From Candidatus Methanoxibalbensis ujae (GTDB taxonomy: Archaea; Halobacteriota; Syntropharchaeia; Alkanophagales; Methanospirareceae), in contig JAOQIN010000017.1 in assembly GCA_026134085.1 (NCBI GenBank), positions 1 through 34,546 on the forward strand: 34,546 bases of DNA, given 5' to 3'. Position 1 is the stretch's first letter, and the number at the start of each line of letters is the position of its first letter. The translations under genes and the position numbers were made by a program. Below, piece after piece: positions 3,291 through 29,311 of this stretch. The notes under the pieces are model-generated. The model saw only the letters and a program-made list of their open reading frames with translations. It searched no databases and was not told the DNA's origin.

Positions 3291-5261
3291 TCAGAAATAC
3301 CATTGAGGCAGCCATTTAAGGCTGTCCCTGTATTCAGGAGAAACCGGCATTCCTGAGATAACGGGATAAAACATCACAAATACAGCGGCAACGAATATGA
3401 GATATGCGATGACAATGCTCCTTGAGAGAGCTTTGCTGTCTTTATCCTCCCACAGCAATTCAAGCCAGTATGTCACTGCGAGTATGAGAAATGTGGTGGC
3501 AGGTGCGAAATGATAGATGAAGAGTATGCGCGGGATGAGCGCGTATGGCAGCCAGAGGGAGAAGAAGGGTATGATTATGAAAAGCTGCTTCAGTATTTTT
3601 GAATGTGCGGCTGGCGCTGCGGCTGTCGCCTCATTGTGCGGGTCTGCTGCTCCTGATGGGACTCCTGATGATGTGATTTTTTCATGTCTCACGAATGCAG
3701 CGACTGAAGTTGCAGCGATCGCCGGTATCGCACTCCACCATATCACGGGATTTCCCATCAAAACGACCGTTGAGACAGTGTTTCCCTCCGTGTTCACGAA
3801 CATCCAGAGCGGCTTCAGGATGAGAGGCCACGACCACCATGGCGATGAGAAGGGATGCGTCGCATTGAGGCTCGCATGATAGAGGAACATACCTATCTGA
3901 AGGTCAAAAACTGTCAGCGGTGATGGAGTTGTTATATTCACAGTGCCTCCCCTCAGGTATTCGGACACGTATTGCATGTACAAAGGCAGTCTGCTCATGT
4001 CAAAAAGCGGATGACCTGAAAGCATATAGGGTATGTAAGTTGCAATGTATATTGCGGCGGATGCGAATACACCAGCCAGAATTACATTAAAATCACTGCG
4101 AACATGCTCTTTCCTCGCGAGCAGAAGGAACAGGATAATTATGGTGAGGAACCCATAAAAGGCAGTCCATTTGACAGCGAACCACAATCCACAGCACACT
4201 ATGCTGATGAAAAGCGACATTCTCGCCGCCTTGTTCTGCTGCCTTTTCCGCAGATATTCGTGGAAGAAGAAGAATGTGAGAAGTGAGAAGAAGAACAGAT
4301 ATATCTCGCCTGTTGCGAGCCTTGCGAGTGAAAAATGCATGAAGTCAAATGCCAGAAGGTAGGCTGCGAAGTATCCGGCTGTGTTGCTGCCAAAAAGGCG
4401 CCTCGCAAACAGGAACATGACAGGTATCATCGCTGCCGCTGCTATGACGCCGATAACACGCCACCCAAAAGGATTCATGCCAAAAAGAATGATGCCAAGC
4501 GCAATTATCAGCTTTCCGAGAGGAGGATGGGTGGTCTCATAGGGTTCTTCAAGGTGAAGATACTCCCATGCGGTTCTGACAAAATACATCTCGTCAAAAT
4601 ATGCACCGTTCTTCTGCGTTATCGGCAGCTCAATCTCATCCTGCTCGTCGAAAATATTTCCTGGATCGCTGATGCTTTTATCGCCGATGCTTTTCATGCT
4701 GTTTGCTGTGTTGTCAGCCGATTTGTCAGCTGTGTCTGTTGATTTGATACTGCCAATGCGCACTGGTATCCTGTGGCCTTCCGCAGATATGATGAGTATC
4801 TCACCTATCTTCCCGTATGTGGGTTCAAAAACGAATTTAAGCATGTCAGTTTTTCTGTTCAGTGCAAGGCGCACCCAATTGCAGAAACGCACATCGTTGG
4901 AGTTGTCGTATGTAAGCACCTTGCGCCATCTGTGACTGATGTTGCTCGTGTCGCCTGTATTTGTATCGCCCATATGGGAGCTTCTGCTTCCACAGAAAAC
5001 CTCAAATTTCGTGGCGTTTGCGTCGCACAGAAAAACATATATGGCGCTCACATCACATCCGTCGGATGTGCAGTTCTGAAGCTGCACGATCATCTCAGTT
5101 CGCCCATCACCGCCTGCGGCCGGTTGCCAACATGAGATCGGAATGTGAAATGTGCCCATGTTGAACAGTGCAAGCGCAGTAAATACCAGTGTGATAGCAG
5201 CAACTATCACGATACTGAGATGATTGCCACTGTTCCGCTTTCTATCCGTCAGCGCGCTCAT
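3291..5261 (-). CDS. GT39-family dolichyl-phosphate-mannose:protein O-mannosyltransferase (PMT)
   Basis: This 656-residue polytopic membrane enzyme is predicted to move mannose (or another hexose) from a polyprenyl-phosphate donor to Ser/Thr of exported proteins. TM1 is at about residues 14-33. A beta-rich extracytoplasmic domain of about 170 residues follows, ending in a low-complexity STDTADKSADNTANSMKSIG segment. Then comes the GT39 signature: acidic FDEMYF and THPPLGKLIIALGI, a run of TM helices, and the C-terminal PMT four-helix block with KPLWMFVNTEGN and VVLMGNPVIWW. ATG 5261 is preferred over the upstream TTG 5267. A TATATAT box lies about 30 bp upstream. The N-terminal soluble domain is larger than in eukaryotic PMTs. 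The sugar and targets are inferred; Pro/Thr-rich surface proteins in this window are candidates. Confidence 0.88.
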   Translation of the reverse strand: MSALTDRKRNSGNHLSIVIVAAITLVFTALALFNMGTFHIPISCWQPAAGGDGRTEMIVQLQNCTSDGCDVSAIYVFLCDANATKFEVFCGSRSSHMGDTNTGDTSNISHRWRKVLTYDNSNDVRFCNWVRLALNRKTDMLKFVFEPTYGKIGEILIISAEGHRIPVRIGSIKSTDTADKSADNTANSMKSIGDKSISDPGNIFDEQDEIELPITQKNGAYFDEMYFVRTAWEYLHLEEPYETTHPPLGKLIIALGIILFGMNPFGWRVIGVIAAAAMIPVMFLFARRLFGSNTAGYFAAYLLAFDFMHFSLARLATGEIYLFFFSLLTFFFFHEYLRKRQQNKAARMSLFISIVCCGLWFAVKWTAFYGFLTIIILFLLLARKEHVRSDFNVILAGVFASAAIYIATYIPYMLSGHPLFDMSRLPLYMQYVSEYLRGGTVNITTPSPLTVFDLQIGMFLYHASLNATHPFSSPWWSWPLILKPLWMFVNTEGNTVSTVVLMGNPVIWWSAIPAIAATSVAAFVRHEKITSSGVPSGAADPHNEATAAAPAAHSKILKQLFIIIPFFSLWLPYALIPRILFIYHFAPATTFLILAVTYWLELLWEDKDSKALSRSIVIAYLIFVAAVFVMFYPVISGMPVSPEYRDSLKWLPQWYF

Positions 5262-24115: not shown

Positions 24116-24263
24116 ATTCTCCTCTGTTCTTTCTCGTTCTTTTCTTTTGTCTCTCCTCCCTCAATCTCACGACCTTACCTCAACCTCAACACTTAACCTC
24201 ACCTGCGATGTGCGATGCTATGTGCGGTCTTATGAGACTTATGAGATAAGGAGGAATTTTATA

Positions 24264-27200
24264 ATGATGGGGTCAGTGACATCCGTGTCAGCATCTGAGG
24301 ATAAGGAAATCTCATCGGCGATAGATGCGGCGACACCTTTGATGAAGCAGTATTTTGAGATAAAGAAGAGATGCGGCGACGCTATACTTTTGTTTCAGGT
24401 TGGTGATTTTTTTGAGACATTTGGGGATGATGCGAGGCGCATTTCAAAGGATCTCGGCATTGTGCTGACAAAGAGGGAGAGGGGCGGGGATGAGCCCATA
24501 CCGATGGCGGGATTTCCATGTCATTCGGCGATGAATTATGTGAAGAGGCTCATAAATCGCGGATACAAGGTTGCGATATGCGAGCAGGTTGAGAAGCCAT
24601 CTCCCAATAAGAAGCTTGTGAGGAGGGAGATAACGAGGATTATAACACCCGGCACTGTTGTTGAGGACGAGCTCCTTGATGTTGGGAACAACTTCTTCAT
24701 GGGCGTTCTGAGCACGCGTGATGTGCCTTCATGCGCTCATGAATGCGCTCATGATAATATCAGATTTGCAGCTGCGTTTGTTGACATATCAACGGGAGAT
24801 ATGTTCATCACAGAGACTGACGGCGACCAGCTGCTATCAGAGATCACGAAATTTTCACCCGTTGAATGCATAATTCCCAGGGGATTTGACGAAGAACTCA
24901 AAAGGGAGATAGGCGTTCACTGCTTCATAAACGAGGTTGATGTGGAGTTTTTTGAGGACGCGATATCCGCATTGAACAGGCTTGGCATTGATCTGCATTC
25001 TCCTTTGAGCAGGCGAGTGGTTAGCGCGACACTCCGATATATAAGCCGCGTATGCATGCGTGACATCTCTCACATTCGTGTCAGAAGGTATGAAATGCAT
25101 GATTTCATGATGATTGATGCCACGACACTGAAAAATCTTGAGATATTTGAGCCTCTGAGAGGGAAAGGAGGAACACTTCTGAGCGTAATAGACAGGACAA
25201 CAACTCCTATGGGCAGGAGAATGCTGAGAGAATGGTTGAGAAAGCCTCTGAAGGATGCTTCAATCATAAAAGAGAGGCTTGACGCTGTTGAAGAGCTTTT
25301 CAGAAAGCCGTTCGTGAGGAATGAACTCGCTGAAACACTGCAAAATCTGTATGACATGGAACGCCTTGTAAGCAGGGTGAAGCTCGGACTGGCAAATGCG
25401 AGAGACCTAGTGGCACTGCGAAGAAGCCTTGAAGCAGCATCAGAAATGAAAAAAAATGTGGAATTCAGCAGCAAAATGCTGAAATCAATTTTAAAACGCA
25501 TTGATGATGTCAGTGAGGTGCAGGAAATCATAAAAAAGGCAATCGCAGATGATCCTCCAGCAACTCTGAAGGAGGGATACATCATAAAAGATGGATTTAA
25601 CGCTGAATTAGATGCGATAAGAAATGCAAAGCGTGATGATGAGCGATGGATAAGAGAATTTGAGATCAGAGAGAGAGAAAGAACCGGGATAAACTCGCTC
25701 AAAGTCGGATACAACGACATAATCGGATATTACATAGAGGTTACGAAGCCAAACTTGAAGCTCGTGCCACCGGAATATGTGAGGAGGCAGACACTGAAAA
25801 ATGTTGAGAGATACTCAACGCCGGATCTTGACAGGCGATCAGAGCGTGTTCAGAGCGCGGATGAGCGCATAAAAGCGATGGAATACGAGATATTCTGCAG
25901 TGTGAGGGATGATGTCTCAAAATACACGAGAAGAATACAGGATACAGCAAAGGCTATTGCCGAGCTTGATGTCCTGATATCTTTTGCAGATGTATCAGCA
26001 ACGAACAACTATGTGAAGCCTGAGGTTCACAGCGGAAAGGATCTCACGATAAAATGCGGAAGGCATCCTGTCGTTGAACTATCAACGGATTTCGTGCCAA
26101 ATGATGTCACTCTTGATGAAAGAAGCAGATTCATGATAATAACAGGTCCCAATGCGTCCGGAAAATCAACTTATGTTCGTATGGTGGCGCTGATTGCGAT
26201 ATTATCGCAGATAGGATGTTTCGTGCCCGCTGAAGAGGCTAAAATCTGCATTTTTGATAAAATATTGACGAGAATAGGTTCGGTTGATGAGATTTCATCG
26301 GGTATAAGCTCATTTATGGTTGAAATAATGGAAATGCTGAAAATAATAAGGCATGCAAGCGAGAGGGACCTTGTCCTTCTGGATGAAGTCGGCAAGGGAA
26401 CAAGCACATATGATGGGATAAGCATTGCGTGGGCGTTCTCAAAATATCTCTGCGAAGTTGGCTGCAAAGTGCTTTTCGCAACTCACTTCAGGGAGCTCAC
26501 AGAACTTGAGAATGAGGAGGGATGTGTTGTCAATTATCATTTTGACGCTGTTGAATCCTCGCAGACACTGCACTTCGTCAGGAAGCTCAAGCGAGGAGTT
26601 TCCGAGAGGAGCTACGGGATAAAGGTTGCTGAAATGCTGAAGATGCCGAGGCGCATCATAGAAGAAGCTGAGAGAAAGCTTGAAATGTTGGAGAGGACTC
26701 ATTCCACTCATTCTGAAAGAATTAAATCGCAATATGAGCGGAAGAAGTGCGATGTGCGTGAGAGAGGCGGTGTGAGAGGTGTCGCAGCAGGCAGTTGTGT
26801 TGCAGCAGGCAGTGATGTTGCAGCAGGTGGTGTCGGGGAAGCTGACAATGTCGGGGAAGCTGACAAGATAAATGCGAAAATAGATGAGGTCATTGCGATC
26901 CTTCGTGATATACATGAGAAGGAGAGGAGAACCACAATATTGAGAGCGATAAAAGAGCTTCAGCTTTTCAAAAGCGAGCGCTTTTCCGCGTTCAAGCTTC
27001 GCAGAAAGTGTGGTGAGGGCATAGATCATTTCATCGCGAAAAATTTGCTTTTCAATTCGCTTGAGAATGTCCGCGCTTATTCTGTGGAGGCAAAGCGGAG
27101 TGCTATAAGCAAGTTTGGATACAGACCGGATGTGATGGCGATCACGGATGAGGGACTCATCATAATAGAAGTGGAGAGGAACATAAAAGCATTCATCAGA

Positions 27201-27431
27201 AAGCTGCGCTCACTTGAGAGCGCGCTCGCTGCGTTGAGGCGCGATGCTCATGAGACAGGAGACCCCATACTGAAGCTCATGCGTGCGGGAGATTTCAAGA
27301 TAATCGTGGGAACCCTGAAAATAAACGAGGGGGACCTGCGGAAACTTCGTGAATCGTGCTCACGATTGAATTTGAATGTTGAGGTATATCACGTGCATAC
27401 CGAAAACGGGGAAATAGCGCGTTTTATTTGA
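24264..27431 (+). CDS. mutS: DNA mismatch repair protein MutS with a C-terminal nuclease-like extension
   Basis: The protein has 1055 residues against about 850-900 for usual MutS. ATG 24264 is set by AAGGAGGA at 24248-24255; in-frame codons upstream look non-coding. The mismatch-recognition domain has LLFQVGDFFETFGDDARRI (the Phe-x-Glu wedge) and PMAGFPCHS. Connector, lever and clamp follow (GRRMLREWLRKPLKD, VGYNDIIGYYIEVTKPN). The ABC ATPase has GPNASGKST (about 628), the LVLLDEVGKGTSTYDG Walker B, and LFATHFRELTELE. After about residue 810 come a linker with VAAGS(C/D) and GEAD(N/K) hexapeptides (about 839-868), a helical stretch, then GYRPDVMAITDEGLIIIEVE (P955, D956, E969, E971). Predicted order is helix, three strands, helix, strand, as in PD-(D/E)XK nucleases. 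No mutL is in the window. Confidence 0.93.
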   Translation: MMGSVTSVSASEDKEISSAIDAATPLMKQYFEIKKRCGDAILLFQVGDFFETFGDDARRISKDLGIVLTKRERGGDEPIPMAGFPCHSAMNYVKRLINRGYKVAICEQVEKPSPNKKLVRREITRIITPGTVVEDELLDVGNNFFMGVLSTRDVPSCAHECAHDNIRFAAAFVDISTGDMFITETDGDQLLSEITKFSPVECIIPRGFDEELKREIGVHCFINEVDVEFFEDAISALNRLGIDLHSPLSRRVVSATLRYISRVCMRDISHIRVRRYEMHDFMMIDATTLKNLEIFEPLRGKGGTLLSVIDRTTTPMGRRMLREWLRKPLKDASIIKERLDAVEELFRKPFVRNELAETLQNLYDMERLVSRVKLGLANARDLVALRRSLEAASEMKKNVEFSSKMLKSILKRIDDVSEVQEIIKKAIADDPPATLKEGYIIKDGFNAELDAIRNAKRDDERWIREFEIRERERTGINSLKVGYNDIIGYYIEVTKPNLKLVPPEYVRRQTLKNVERYSTPDLDRRSERVQSADERIKAMEYEIFCSVRDDVSKYTRRIQDTAKAIAELDVLISFADVSATNNYVKPEVHSGKDLTIKCGRHPVVELSTDFVPNDVTLDERSRFMIITGPNASGKSTYVRMVALIAILSQIGCFVPAEEAKICIFDKILTRIGSVDEISSGISSFMVEIMEMLKIIRHASERDLVLLDEVGKGTSTYDGISIAWAFSKYLCEVGCKVLFATHFRELTELENEEGCVVNYHFDAVESSQTLHFVRKLKRGVSERSYGIKVAEMLKMPRRIIEEAERKLEMLERTHSTHSERIKSQYERKKCDVRERGGVRGVAAGSCVAAGSDVAAGGVGEADNVGEADKINAKIDEVIAILRDIHEKERRTTILRAIKELQLFKSERFSAFKLRRKCGEGIDHFIAKNLLFNSLENVRAYSVEAKRSAISKFGYRPDVMAITDEGLIIIEVERNIKAFIRKLRSLESALAALRRDAHETGDPILKLMRAGDFKIIVGTLKINEGDLRKLRESCSRLNLNVEVYHVHTENGEIARFI
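26779..26866 (+). repeat. 18-bp repeats encoding hexapeptides in the MutS linker
   Basis: Three near-identical 18-bp units around GCAGCAGGCAGT (starts 26784, 26802, 26820) are followed by two exact copies of TGTCGGGGAAGCTGACAA (26831-26848, 26849-26866). They encode VAAGSC-VAAGSD-VAAGGV-GEADNV-GEADKI. Confidence 0.9.
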
Positions 27432-27631
27432 CATACTCCACTCGTGGAGATGGAGGTCCATCGGCATAAGTCTCATCCTGCTCTGGCTCAATGCAGCCCT
27501 TATACTGGATACTGACAGGATACTGACCTGAGCATCAACTATTGAACCATAACTTCACCAACTCATCTCATGGCCAACCATTGCGCTCTCCTTTGCGTTT
27601 GCTGCCTCAGCGTTTTCATTGTGATGTGGAG

Positions 27632-27657
27632 CTGCCTGTGGACACTGCCTGTGGACA
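27632..27657. repeat. 13-bp exact tandem duplication
   Basis: CTGCCTGTGGACA occurs twice head to tail in the mutS/leuD intergenic gap (27432-27695). That gap otherwise shows no gene. A second short direct repeat GGATACTGAC (27507, 27518) lies nearby. Confidence 0.9.
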
Positions 27658-27695
27658 TAGGCTCCCCGGCTGAGATGGCTTTCGGTGCAGGTGAA

Positions 27696-28199
27696 TCAGG
27701 AACCTCTCACCGTCATCTCCTTCATTTGTTTTCTTTTCTTCACATAGGGCACGAGACCCCCCATCTCAATGAGATTCTCCATGAATTCTGGCAGCGGTCT
27801 GAACACATATTCTTCTTTTTTCGTGATGTTTTTTATGATTCCCTTTCTGTAATCAATCTCTATCTCATCACCATCGCTCACTTTATCGCTTATATCCGCC
27901 TCAATCAATCGCAATCCTGTGTTTATCGCGTTTCTGAAGAATATCCTTGCAAATGAAGATGCGATAACGCAGCTTATCCCTGCTCCCTTCAGTGCGCGCG
28001 GTGCGTGCTCCCTTGAAGATCCGCAGCCGAAGTTGCGACCGGCGACAATGACATCTCCCCTCCTCACCGCTGACGGGAATTCAGGACGCACCTTCGCAAA
28101 TGCATGCTTCGCAAGCTCCTCGGGATCTGCTGTTGTCAGGAACTCGGCTGGAATTATCTGATCAGTGTCCACATCATCTCCAAATTTCCACACACGCAT
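27696..28199 (-). CDS. leuD: LeuD/HacB-family aconitase small subunit (3-isopropylmalate or related dehydratase)
   Basis: The 167-residue swivelling domain carries [40 protein letters not shown] and [20 protein letters not shown]. It works only with a large [4Fe-4S] subunit (LeuC/HacA type), which is not in the window. Archaeal paralogues act in leucine synthesis, in homoaconitate chemistry for coenzyme B, or on citramalate-derived acids. The substrate loop here is [11 protein letters not shown], which I cannot assign confidently. The ATG at 28199 has an AAAAATAAAG box about 18 bp upstream and no clear ribosome site. It therefore seems to have its own promoter rather than relying on the upstream ferredoxin gene 67 bp away. 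Confidence 0.85.
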
Positions 28200-28220
28200 A
28201 TTCTTTCTTTATTTTTATCG

Positions 28221-28238
28221 TTTGATAAGTTTGATAAG
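28221..28238. repeat. 9-bp exact tandem duplication upstream of leuD
   Basis: TTTGATAAG occurs twice head to tail just upstream of the presumed leuD promoter. Confidence 0.8.
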
Positions 28239-28266
28239 ATAATATGAAGCCATTGACTGTGCTCAT

Positions 28267-28650
28267 TCATGTGAGGCTCAATGCGCTCGTTGGGCATGCT
28301 TTCACGCAGACATCGCAGCGAACGCATTTCTCTTCATCCACCTGAATTCTCCATTCTCTGTCAAATCTGAAAACGCCCTTGGGACACACAGATATACATG
28401 CACCACAATGAACACAGCGCTCATCTTTCAATGTCAGCGTCCTTTTTATCCTGCGGACAACCACGCCCCGCTTCCTGAACTGCTCTATCACATGCTCGGC
28501 CTTCTCATCAGGCACATCTATGATGAGCTCCCCGCGAACCGCATCCACATTCGCCCTGTCTATGTTTATTTTTGCACCTGTCTCAAGAATGACCTCTGCG
28601 GTGTATGGCATGCCATGCACATGCGATGGGAAACACACGAGAAGCTTCAT
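28267..28650 (-). CDS. NIL-domain 2[4Fe-4S] ferredoxin
   Basis: The protein has 127 residues. An N-terminal NIL-type ferredoxin-like domain of about 65 residues (MKLLVCFPSHVHGMPYTAEV, ELIIDVPDEKAEHVIEQFRK) leads to two Cys clusters: CVHCGACISVCPKG and CVRCDVCVKACPTSA. NIL-ferredoxins in methanogens (the MA1822 type) act with a COG1900/DUF39 protein to form homocysteine from aspartate semialdehyde. No COG1900 gene is in this window, so that role is only a suggestion. ATG 28650 has GGGAGATGTG before it and starts one base after the TGA of the upstream LeuD-like gene, so the two are translationally coupled. Confidence 0.88.
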   Translation of the reverse strand: MKLLVCFPSHVHGMPYTAEVILETGAKINIDRANVDAVRGELIIDVPDEKAEHVIEQFRKRGVVVRRIKRTLTLKDERCVHCGACISVCPKGVFRFDREWRIQVDEEKCVRCDVCVKACPTSALSLT

Positions 28651-28651
28651 A

Positions 28652-29311
28652 TCACATCTCCCTCCGCCGTTCATTCTTTTTCTCCTTTTTCACTGGAAAA
28701 CCATGCTTGCGAAGGAATTCCACGAGACCCTCTTTCAGTATATCTCGCAGGAAATCGGGCAGTTCTGTTTTGAATTCATATTCCTCATTCTTACTGATGT
28801 TCATGATTTTCGGAGTGACGAAATCAATGTTCAGACGATCTCCCTCGTCTATCCTGTCAACCACACTTTTGGACACTTCTACAAGAGGCAGCCCTATGTT
28901 TATAGAGTTTCTGAAGAATATCCTCGCGAAAGAAGGTGCAATTATGCATGCAATTCCACATTCCTTCAACACGGCAGGCGCCTGCTCCCTTGAAGATCCG
29001 CAGCCGAAGTTCTCATATGCCACGATTATAGGGTTCTCACAGCGACGGGCAGCCTCATAAAAACCCTCACACACTGATTCAAATGTGTGGACTGCGAGCT
29101 TCTTCATATCCAGTTCGTCGTATTTATATTTGCCCGAGATGATCTCATCTGTGTTTGTGTTCGCCGGAAATTTCTTCAGCACTGTTCCTTCCACCCTCTC
29201 AACACCCATTTTATCATTATCACCTTCGCAGCTCCCTTCGCAGCTCAACACCTTTCTTTTTATCTCCTCTGCCGCTGCCGCAAACGCTCGCATGCCGTTA
29301 TGAGAGGTCAT
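28652..29311 (-). CDS. Second LeuD/HacB-family small subunit, with N-terminal extension
   Basis: The protein has 219 residues. The core starts at VEGTVLKKFPANTNTDEIIS, with GKYKYDELDMKKL as the substrate loop, [20 protein letters not shown] and [26 protein letters not shown] instead of SREHAP, and a quite different loop, separate it from the LeuD at 27696-28199, so the two likely serve different substrates. The first 34 residues include an exact duplicated SCEG (12-bp tandem at 29223-29246) and are absent from usual members. ATG 29209, preceded by GAAGGTGATAATGATAAA, is a credible alternative start giving 185 residues. It sits 10 bp after hisF and is coupled to the ferredoxin gene. Confidence 0.83.
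   Translation of the reverse strand: MTSHNGMRAFAAAAEEIKRKVLSCEGSCEGDNDKMGVERVEGTVLKKFPANTNTDEIISGKYKYDELDMKKLAVHTFESVCEGFYEAARRCENPIIVAYENFGCGSSREQAPAVLKECGIACIIAPSFARIFFRNSINIGLPLVEVSKSVVDRIDEGDRLNIDFVTPKIMNISKNEEYEFKTELPDFLRDILKEGLVEFLRKHGFPVKKEKKNERRREM

Follow-up and report, generated by a model that had tools for sequence, protein, structure and literature searches.

A MutS1 with a C-terminal PD-(D/E)XK-like nuclease domain in a deep-branching ANME-1 archaeon: a candidate for MutL-free initiation of mismatch repair

Introduction

Can a MutS protein that carries its own nuclease start mismatch repair without MutL? The question is raised by a mutS gene of Candidatus Methanoxibalbensis ujae, an archaeon of the anaerobic methanotrophic group ANME-1. 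It lies on contig JAOQIN010000017.1 of assembly GCA_026134085.1, and the whole 34,546 nucleotides analysed are called the window here. The window is one contig (C9) of a 1.99 Mb archaeal genome, 89% complete, in a metagenome-type assembly of 86 contigs. An initial sequence-only reading had proposed that the MutS frame continues for about 245 residues beyond the ATPase domain into a PD-(D/E)XK nuclease-like domain that would bypass MutL. From domain content, conservation, predicted structures and the distribution of mutL, we conclude that this MutS1 with its own PD-(D/E)XK nuclease is probably a MutL-free initiator of mismatch repair.

Results

The fusion gene contains a full MutS1

The frame passes from MutS into the tail without a stop codon or a frameshift (open reading frame 24147-27431, + strand), so the first proposal was borne out. 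The likely start, the ATG at 24264 or 24267, lies just 3' of a Shine-Dalgarno-like AAGGAGG. Our residue numbers are those of the sequence-only reading minus one, because another start codon was chosen. The gene and its MutS part are laid out as follows.

24267-27431, + strand: mutS-nuclease fusion gene, 1054 residues plus stop, start at ATG 24267 or 24264 (open frame; Pfam and NCBIfam matches)
24333-24671, + strand: MutS domain I, residues 23-135 (Pfam PF01624, E 7.5e-43), with the mismatch-binding F48-x-E50
24753-25076, + strand: MutS domain II, the connector, residues 163-270 (Pfam PF05188, E 2.5e-9)
25122-25988, + strand: MutS domains III and IV, residues 286-574 (Pfam PF05192 and PF05190)
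26133-26693, + strand: MutS domain V, the ATPase, residues 623-809 (Pfam PF00488, E 7.4e-73), with Walker A at residue 627 and Walker B at residue 702

By Pfam, the full set of MutS domains I-V spans residues 23-809. The protein passed the MutS1 models over their full length, scoring 885 bits against a cut-off of 641.7 and 924 against 480 (NCBIfam TIGR01070 and NF003810, respectively), and its mismatch-reading motif (GDFFETF at 46), Walker A (GPNASGKST at 627) and Walker B (LVLLDEVGKGT at 702) are intact. With the MutS2 model it reached 211 bits, below the cut-off of 400, and no Smr domain was matched in NCBIfam or Pfam; the distinction from MutS2-Smr drawn by the sequence-only reading therefore stands. 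Domain II was the least conserved MutS domain between all groups compared, so that its conservation permits no inference about an interface with MutL.

The tail occurs as a second fusion and as a partner gene of mutS

Among 51 genomes of the same family, 43 gave a MutS match under a strict threshold, and the tail was found in two of them: the window's genome and that of Methanophagales archaeon AOM70-1 (G031), which belongs to a different genus. We read the isolate name as referring to the ANME-1c archaeon of the Ca. Methanoxibalbensis cluster described from a 70 C culture (PMC9539880). The two fusions are 68% identical overall and their tails 51-57% identical, with the core conserved and the linker not. 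Ordinary ANME-1 MutS proteins are tailless and about 45% identical to the MutS of the window. One same-family MutS (genome G005, C1, L160:669-4826) reaches 1385 residues because an intein splits its Walker A motif (GPNMSGK / CIGPETLIF...VGNGFLNHN / STFMRQ).

Profile searches of 394 Halobacteriota genomes recovered nine further relatives of the tail, all of them stand-alone proteins of about 165-180 residues that form one family (f10). A search of the 57 genomes of their order, which we take to be the Archaeoglobales, returned the same nine genes. Every one of them lies directly 3' of mutS on the same strand, its start overlapping the mutS end by 22-25 nucleotides. MutS1 was detected over the cut-off in 10 of the 57 genomes, and nine of these have the tail gene; in the tenth (G301) the contig ends within mutS, so that every MutS1 gene with a complete end is followed by a tail gene. 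Outside MutS-bearing genomes, the 394 Halobacteriota genomes contained no gene of the tail family apart from marginal hits. The wider search for MutS proteins with this tail proposed by the sequence-only reading thus yielded one more fusion and nine neighbours of mutS. In one genome that has the mutS-nuclease pair (G174), a 168-residue frame at C34:7379-7699 (L112) matches NucS_C with E 1.1e-35, which runs counter to the usual mutual exclusion of the two repair systems.

Ratios of nonsynonymous to synonymous substitution rates (dN/dS), taken from pairs with finite dS, were about 0.07-0.17 for the tail and about 0.07-0.14 for the stand-alone partner gene, indicating purifying selection on both.

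The tail resembles a PD-(D/E)XK nuclease with an ExE motif

The tail comprises residues 810-1054 and directly follows the ATPase domain. Its parts are given below; each of the five single sites or motifs is invariant in all 11 tails.

26694-26861, + strand: variable low-complexity linker, residues 810-865
26862-27014, + strand: N-terminal helix of the tail, residues 866-916, common to the stand-alone proteins (alignment A3); helix 2-38 in the model
27015-27422, + strand: PD-(D/E)XK-like nuclease core, residues 917-1052, supported by AlphaFold, by Foldseek and, in relatives, by Pfam PDDEXK_10 and AHJR-like matches
27015-27017, + strand: E917, acidic, just before the first core helix
27087-27089, + strand: E941, at the end of the first core strand
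27126-27131, + strand: P954-D955, the 'PD' of the motif
27168-27176, + strand: E968-x-E970, counterpart of (D/E)-x-K in which Glu replaces Lys
27201-27203, + strand: K979, Lys of the following helix and candidate migrated lysine

AlphaFold models were obtained for both fused tails, with mean predicted local distance difference test scores (pLDDT) of 69.8 (window) and 77.6 (AOM70-1). Each was built on a two-sequence alignment that left out the Archaeoglobales sequences. In both models the elements follow the order helix-strand-(helix)-strand-strand-helix-helix-strand-helix-strand, which gives the topology of PD-(D/E)XK with moderate confidence. When the window model was compared with the PDB by Foldseek, SfsA came top and entries of the nickase Nt.BspD6I followed (probability 0.96-1.00, E 2e-3 to 0.04), with Can2 and AddAB next at lower probability; the best matches are mainly of the PD-(D/E)XK superfamily. 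For the AOM70-1 model, entries of Nt.BspD6I alone exceeded a probability of 0.75, and one low-probability match to SPT16 ranked ahead of them. Nt.BspD6I is therefore the sole recurrent high-probability match of both models. Matches in the viral Foldseek library include MmcB-like and restriction-endonuclease proteins.

At the level of family models, Pfam PDDEXK_10 (PF07788) gave weak-to-threshold matches in 7 of the 11 members, one of them (L039) over the cut-off (21.9 against 21.2 bits), and the AHJR-like model did so in 9; the window tail itself gave no match to PDDEXK_10. No convincing sequence match to a solved structure was found, and the NCBIfam matches of the tail amounted to weak noise. 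Identification of the tail as NucS, HNH, Smr or MutL_C was rejected, there being no such family match in Pfam or NCBIfam. For NucS_C (PF01939) in particular, the Pfam scan gave no match in the tail and, genome-wide, one sub-cut-off hit elsewhere in the window's genome, in agreement with the earlier separation of the fusion from NucS/EndoMS.

The 11 aligned tails are 23-57% identical to that of the window (numbering in alignment A3, tail protein P0003, plus 865 gives full-protein numbering). Residues E917, H921, E941, S948, G951, R953-P954-D955, E968, E970, K979 and P1000 are invariant among them, and these include the residues that had been singled out as catalytic. The PD and the first Glu of the motif are thus kept throughout, and its Lys is Glu in all members. 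Together, the models and the matches support a PD-(D/E)XK fold whose motif is of the ExE type, as first proposed, and K979, which is invariant and lies in the helix that follows, may take over the role of the missing Lys.

Tail residues 914-1043 (P0003 49-178) also match the phage family phrog_2190, 'replication initiation protein' (E 3.3e-6), and there are weak matches to MobC replication-relaxation proteins. These possibly reflect a wider family with a nuclease-like fold. IMG/VR, INPHARED and PLSDB contain no relative of the tail, and its derivation from a virus, phage or plasmid was therefore rejected.

Where other MutS proteins carry a C-terminal (L/S)(T/S)PxxAL segment, the fusion has the linker. 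This segment is kept in ordinary ANME-1 and Archaeoglobales MutS and is missing from the fusion. Within the linker, window positions 26760-26870 hold short near-repeats (GTTGCAGCAGGCAGT..., GTCGGGGAAGCTGACAA...), which suggest recent growth by slippage.

The substitution of the Lys in every member, together with the position of the fused tail at the site of the lost segment, would fit a PD-(D/E)XK domain that has lost catalysis and has replaced the oligomerisation segment at the MutS C-terminus, with DNA binding or dimerisation as its task. We consider this unlikely. Nuclease domains that have died tend to shed their acidic residues, yet all 11 tails, at identities down to 23%, keep E917, E941, D955, E968, E970 and K979. 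The Archaeoglobales MutS proteins retain the C-terminal segment and yet have the partner gene, so that the domain is not merely its substitute. Active sites of the ExE type also exist: that of BamHI consists of D94, E111 and E113, and because BamHI uses ExE, this motif does not imply an inactive nuclease. An active nuclease thus remains our preferred reading of the tail.

MutL is missing from nearly all genomes in which the nuclease accompanies MutS

In searches of 40 genomes with the TIGR00585 profile, the window's genome gave no mutL over the cut-off, and neither did the ten MutS1-bearing Archaeoglobales genomes, most of them 90-99% complete. The small hits in the latter cover just the ATPase region that is common to other GHKL proteins. 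By comparison, 13 of the 15 same-family genomes sampled besides that of the window do have mutL. Gene content thus supports the expectation that the fusion would bypass MutL.

The window's genome also contains remnants of both canonical genes. On contig C21, at about 4567-5231 (+ strand; L128), about 0.67 kb of colinear mutL fragments are spread across several frames, each of which contains 7 stops or more. They were found with the AOM70-1 MutL as query, their colinearity was shown with whole MutL proteins, and they are probably a mutL pseudogene. On contig C67, at about 27495-28938 (- strand; L118:7496-8939), 1.4 kb of colinear mutS fragments are broken by 22 stops or more whichever frame is read. 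This remnant scores about 100 bits with ordinary ANME-1 MutS and at most 61 bits with the fused form, and is thus nearer to the former. From the two remnants it follows that the canonical mutS/mutL pair decayed in the window's lineage while the fusion stayed intact.

MutS generally also acts in anti-recombination, and an active MutS-linked nuclease might serve to reject mismatched recombination intermediates, or to act against invading DNA in defence, rather than to repair replication errors. The patchy distribution in Archaeoglobales (10 of 57 genomes) and the weak similarity of the tail to phrog_2190 would suit such a role, which we nonetheless hold to be improbable. The protein is a full MutS1 with its mismatch-binding motif, and the few loci examined are not surrounded by defence genes. 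Matches to PADLOC families were weak and scattered, none of them convincing. The loss of canonical mutS and mutL in the window's genome points, moreover, to replacement of the same function.

A gene pair as the probable source of the fusion

In a MutS tree rooted on other Halobacteriota, the fused and the Archaeoglobales MutS form one clade (Shimodaira-Hasegawa-like approximate likelihood ratio, SH-aLRT, 99.7), and a clade of fused and ordinary ANME-1 MutS was rejected (approximately unbiased test, p 0.003). The link is independently supported because the tail domain is common to both groups. The simplest history consistent with these sequences would begin with an overlapping mutS-nuclease gene pair of the Archaeoglobales kind. 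This pair would have moved by transfer, presumably in this direction, into deep-branching archaea of the ANME-1c type, where it would have been fused into one gene with loss of the usual MutS C-terminal segment. The old mutS and mutL would then have decayed in the window's lineage.

AOM70-1 has an ordinary mutS as well. It is split by one frameshift (C7:68983-71449, L116), which is either a real inactivation or an assembly error, and the tree places its C-terminal half outside the ordinary MutS of all other ANME-1. Completeness of this metagenome-assembled genome (MAG) is 79% and contamination 6%; the placement is consistent with a native deep-branching copy rather than contamination, and does not settle the matter.

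Discussion

A working model can be proposed for the fusion. MutS would bind a mismatch and turn into a sliding clamp on binding ATP, and the tethered nuclease would nick (or cut) nearby DNA to provide an entry point for excision and resynthesis. A nick by the tail would stand for the step that is carried out in ordinary ANME-1 by MutL, which has the DQHAxxE endonuclease motif. Nicking is tentatively favored over double-strand cutting because of the repair role and the resemblance to Nt.BspD6I. On balance, we favor a separate archaeal route of mismatch repair: in place of MutL, MutS1 would act with a dedicated PD-(D/E)XK nuclease, which an overlapping gene encodes in Archaeoglobales and which is joined to MutS1 in the thermophilic, deep-branching ANME-1.

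Several observations weigh against this proposal. For the tail, Foldseek gave matches of modest strength (E 2e-3 to 0.09; TM scores mostly 0.38-0.47), the AlphaFold models rest on two sequences with pLDDT of 70-78, and with Glu in place of the Lys, catalysis could be changed or lost. Long branches meet in the MutS tree. Because the window's genome is 89% complete, the case that it lacks an intact mutL depends in part on the remnant. AOM70-1 keeps the ordinary mutS, with its frameshift, and an intact mutL beside the fusion, so that the fusion can coexist with MutL in that genome. Finally, one partner-bearing genome, G174, the only such case, has NucS_C over the cut-off. That the fusion is an artefact of assembly or annotation, with an unrelated downstream gene as its tail, has a negligible chance of being true: the assembly is metagenome-type and in 86 contigs, but the frame is continuous, the same fusion occurs in a second genus with its tail under constraint, and a separate gene follows mutS in nine further genomes, so that the second fusion and the gene pair rule out a MAG artefact or frameshift.

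If the proposal holds, MutS1 with a PD-(D/E)XK partner would be a third mismatch-repair arrangement, found in thermophilic archaea that probably include a cultured species. The two systems described for mismatch repair, MutS-MutL and NucS, are nearly mutually exclusive (PMC8228993), and some archaea have neither according to a review (PMC7690668). The fusion makes it testable what MutS requires from MutL beyond a nick. Mismatch detection could also profit from a single-chain, thermostable nickase that is directed by mismatches.

How does the fusion compare with known systems? The view of the sequence-only reading that no MutS of such a layout had been described was too strong. MutS7, or mtMutS, which occurs in octocoral mitochondria, epsilonproteobacteria and giant viruses, bears an HNH nuclease at its C-terminus and was proposed to be a self-contained mismatch-repair factor that works without MutL (PMC3166940). 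It differs from the fusion in its nuclease, in its lineage and in having a core of domains I, III and V only, and no gene-pair form of it is described in that work; the fusion is a full MutS1 of domains I-V, in which Pfam finds domains II and IV and no HNH match.

MSH1 of plants also joins MutS to a C-terminal nuclease, here a GIY-YIG domain, in a eukaryotic, organellar protein. The plant family is covered elsewhere (PMC12292046).

MutS2-Smr shares with the fusion a MutS-type ATPase and a C-terminal nuclease. MutS2 itself has the Smr domain and is without the mismatch-binding domain.

NucS/EndoMS is an archaeal PD-(D/E)XK enzyme that cuts mismatched DNA and occurs where MutS/MutL is absent (PMC8228993). 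NucS itself senses the mismatch, a task that would fall to MutS in the fusion.

Ordinary archaeal MutS1/MutL, as in Methanosaeta thermophila, uses the same MutS1 sensor and leaves nicking to a separate protein (PMC7690668). That partner, MutL, is a GHKL ATPase with a DQHAxxE nuclease, and here a PD-(D/E)XK domain would stand in for it.

The nickases Nt.BspD6I and Nt.BstNBI are site-specific restriction enzymes that have no link to MutS and no significant sequence match to the tail. The catalytic residues of Nt.BspD6I, E418 and D456 (PMC6261011), are spaced by 38 residues, as are E917 and D955, possibly by coincidence.

Our literature search, which left most subscription journals outside its scope, found no description of a PD-(D/E)XK version, of an archaeal mutS-nuclease pair or of such a replacement of MutL. 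Fusions of MutS to a nuclease are thus already known from MutS7-HNH and MSH1-GIY-YIG, and it is the PD-(D/E)XK form, the gene pair and the putative replacement of MutL that appear to be new.

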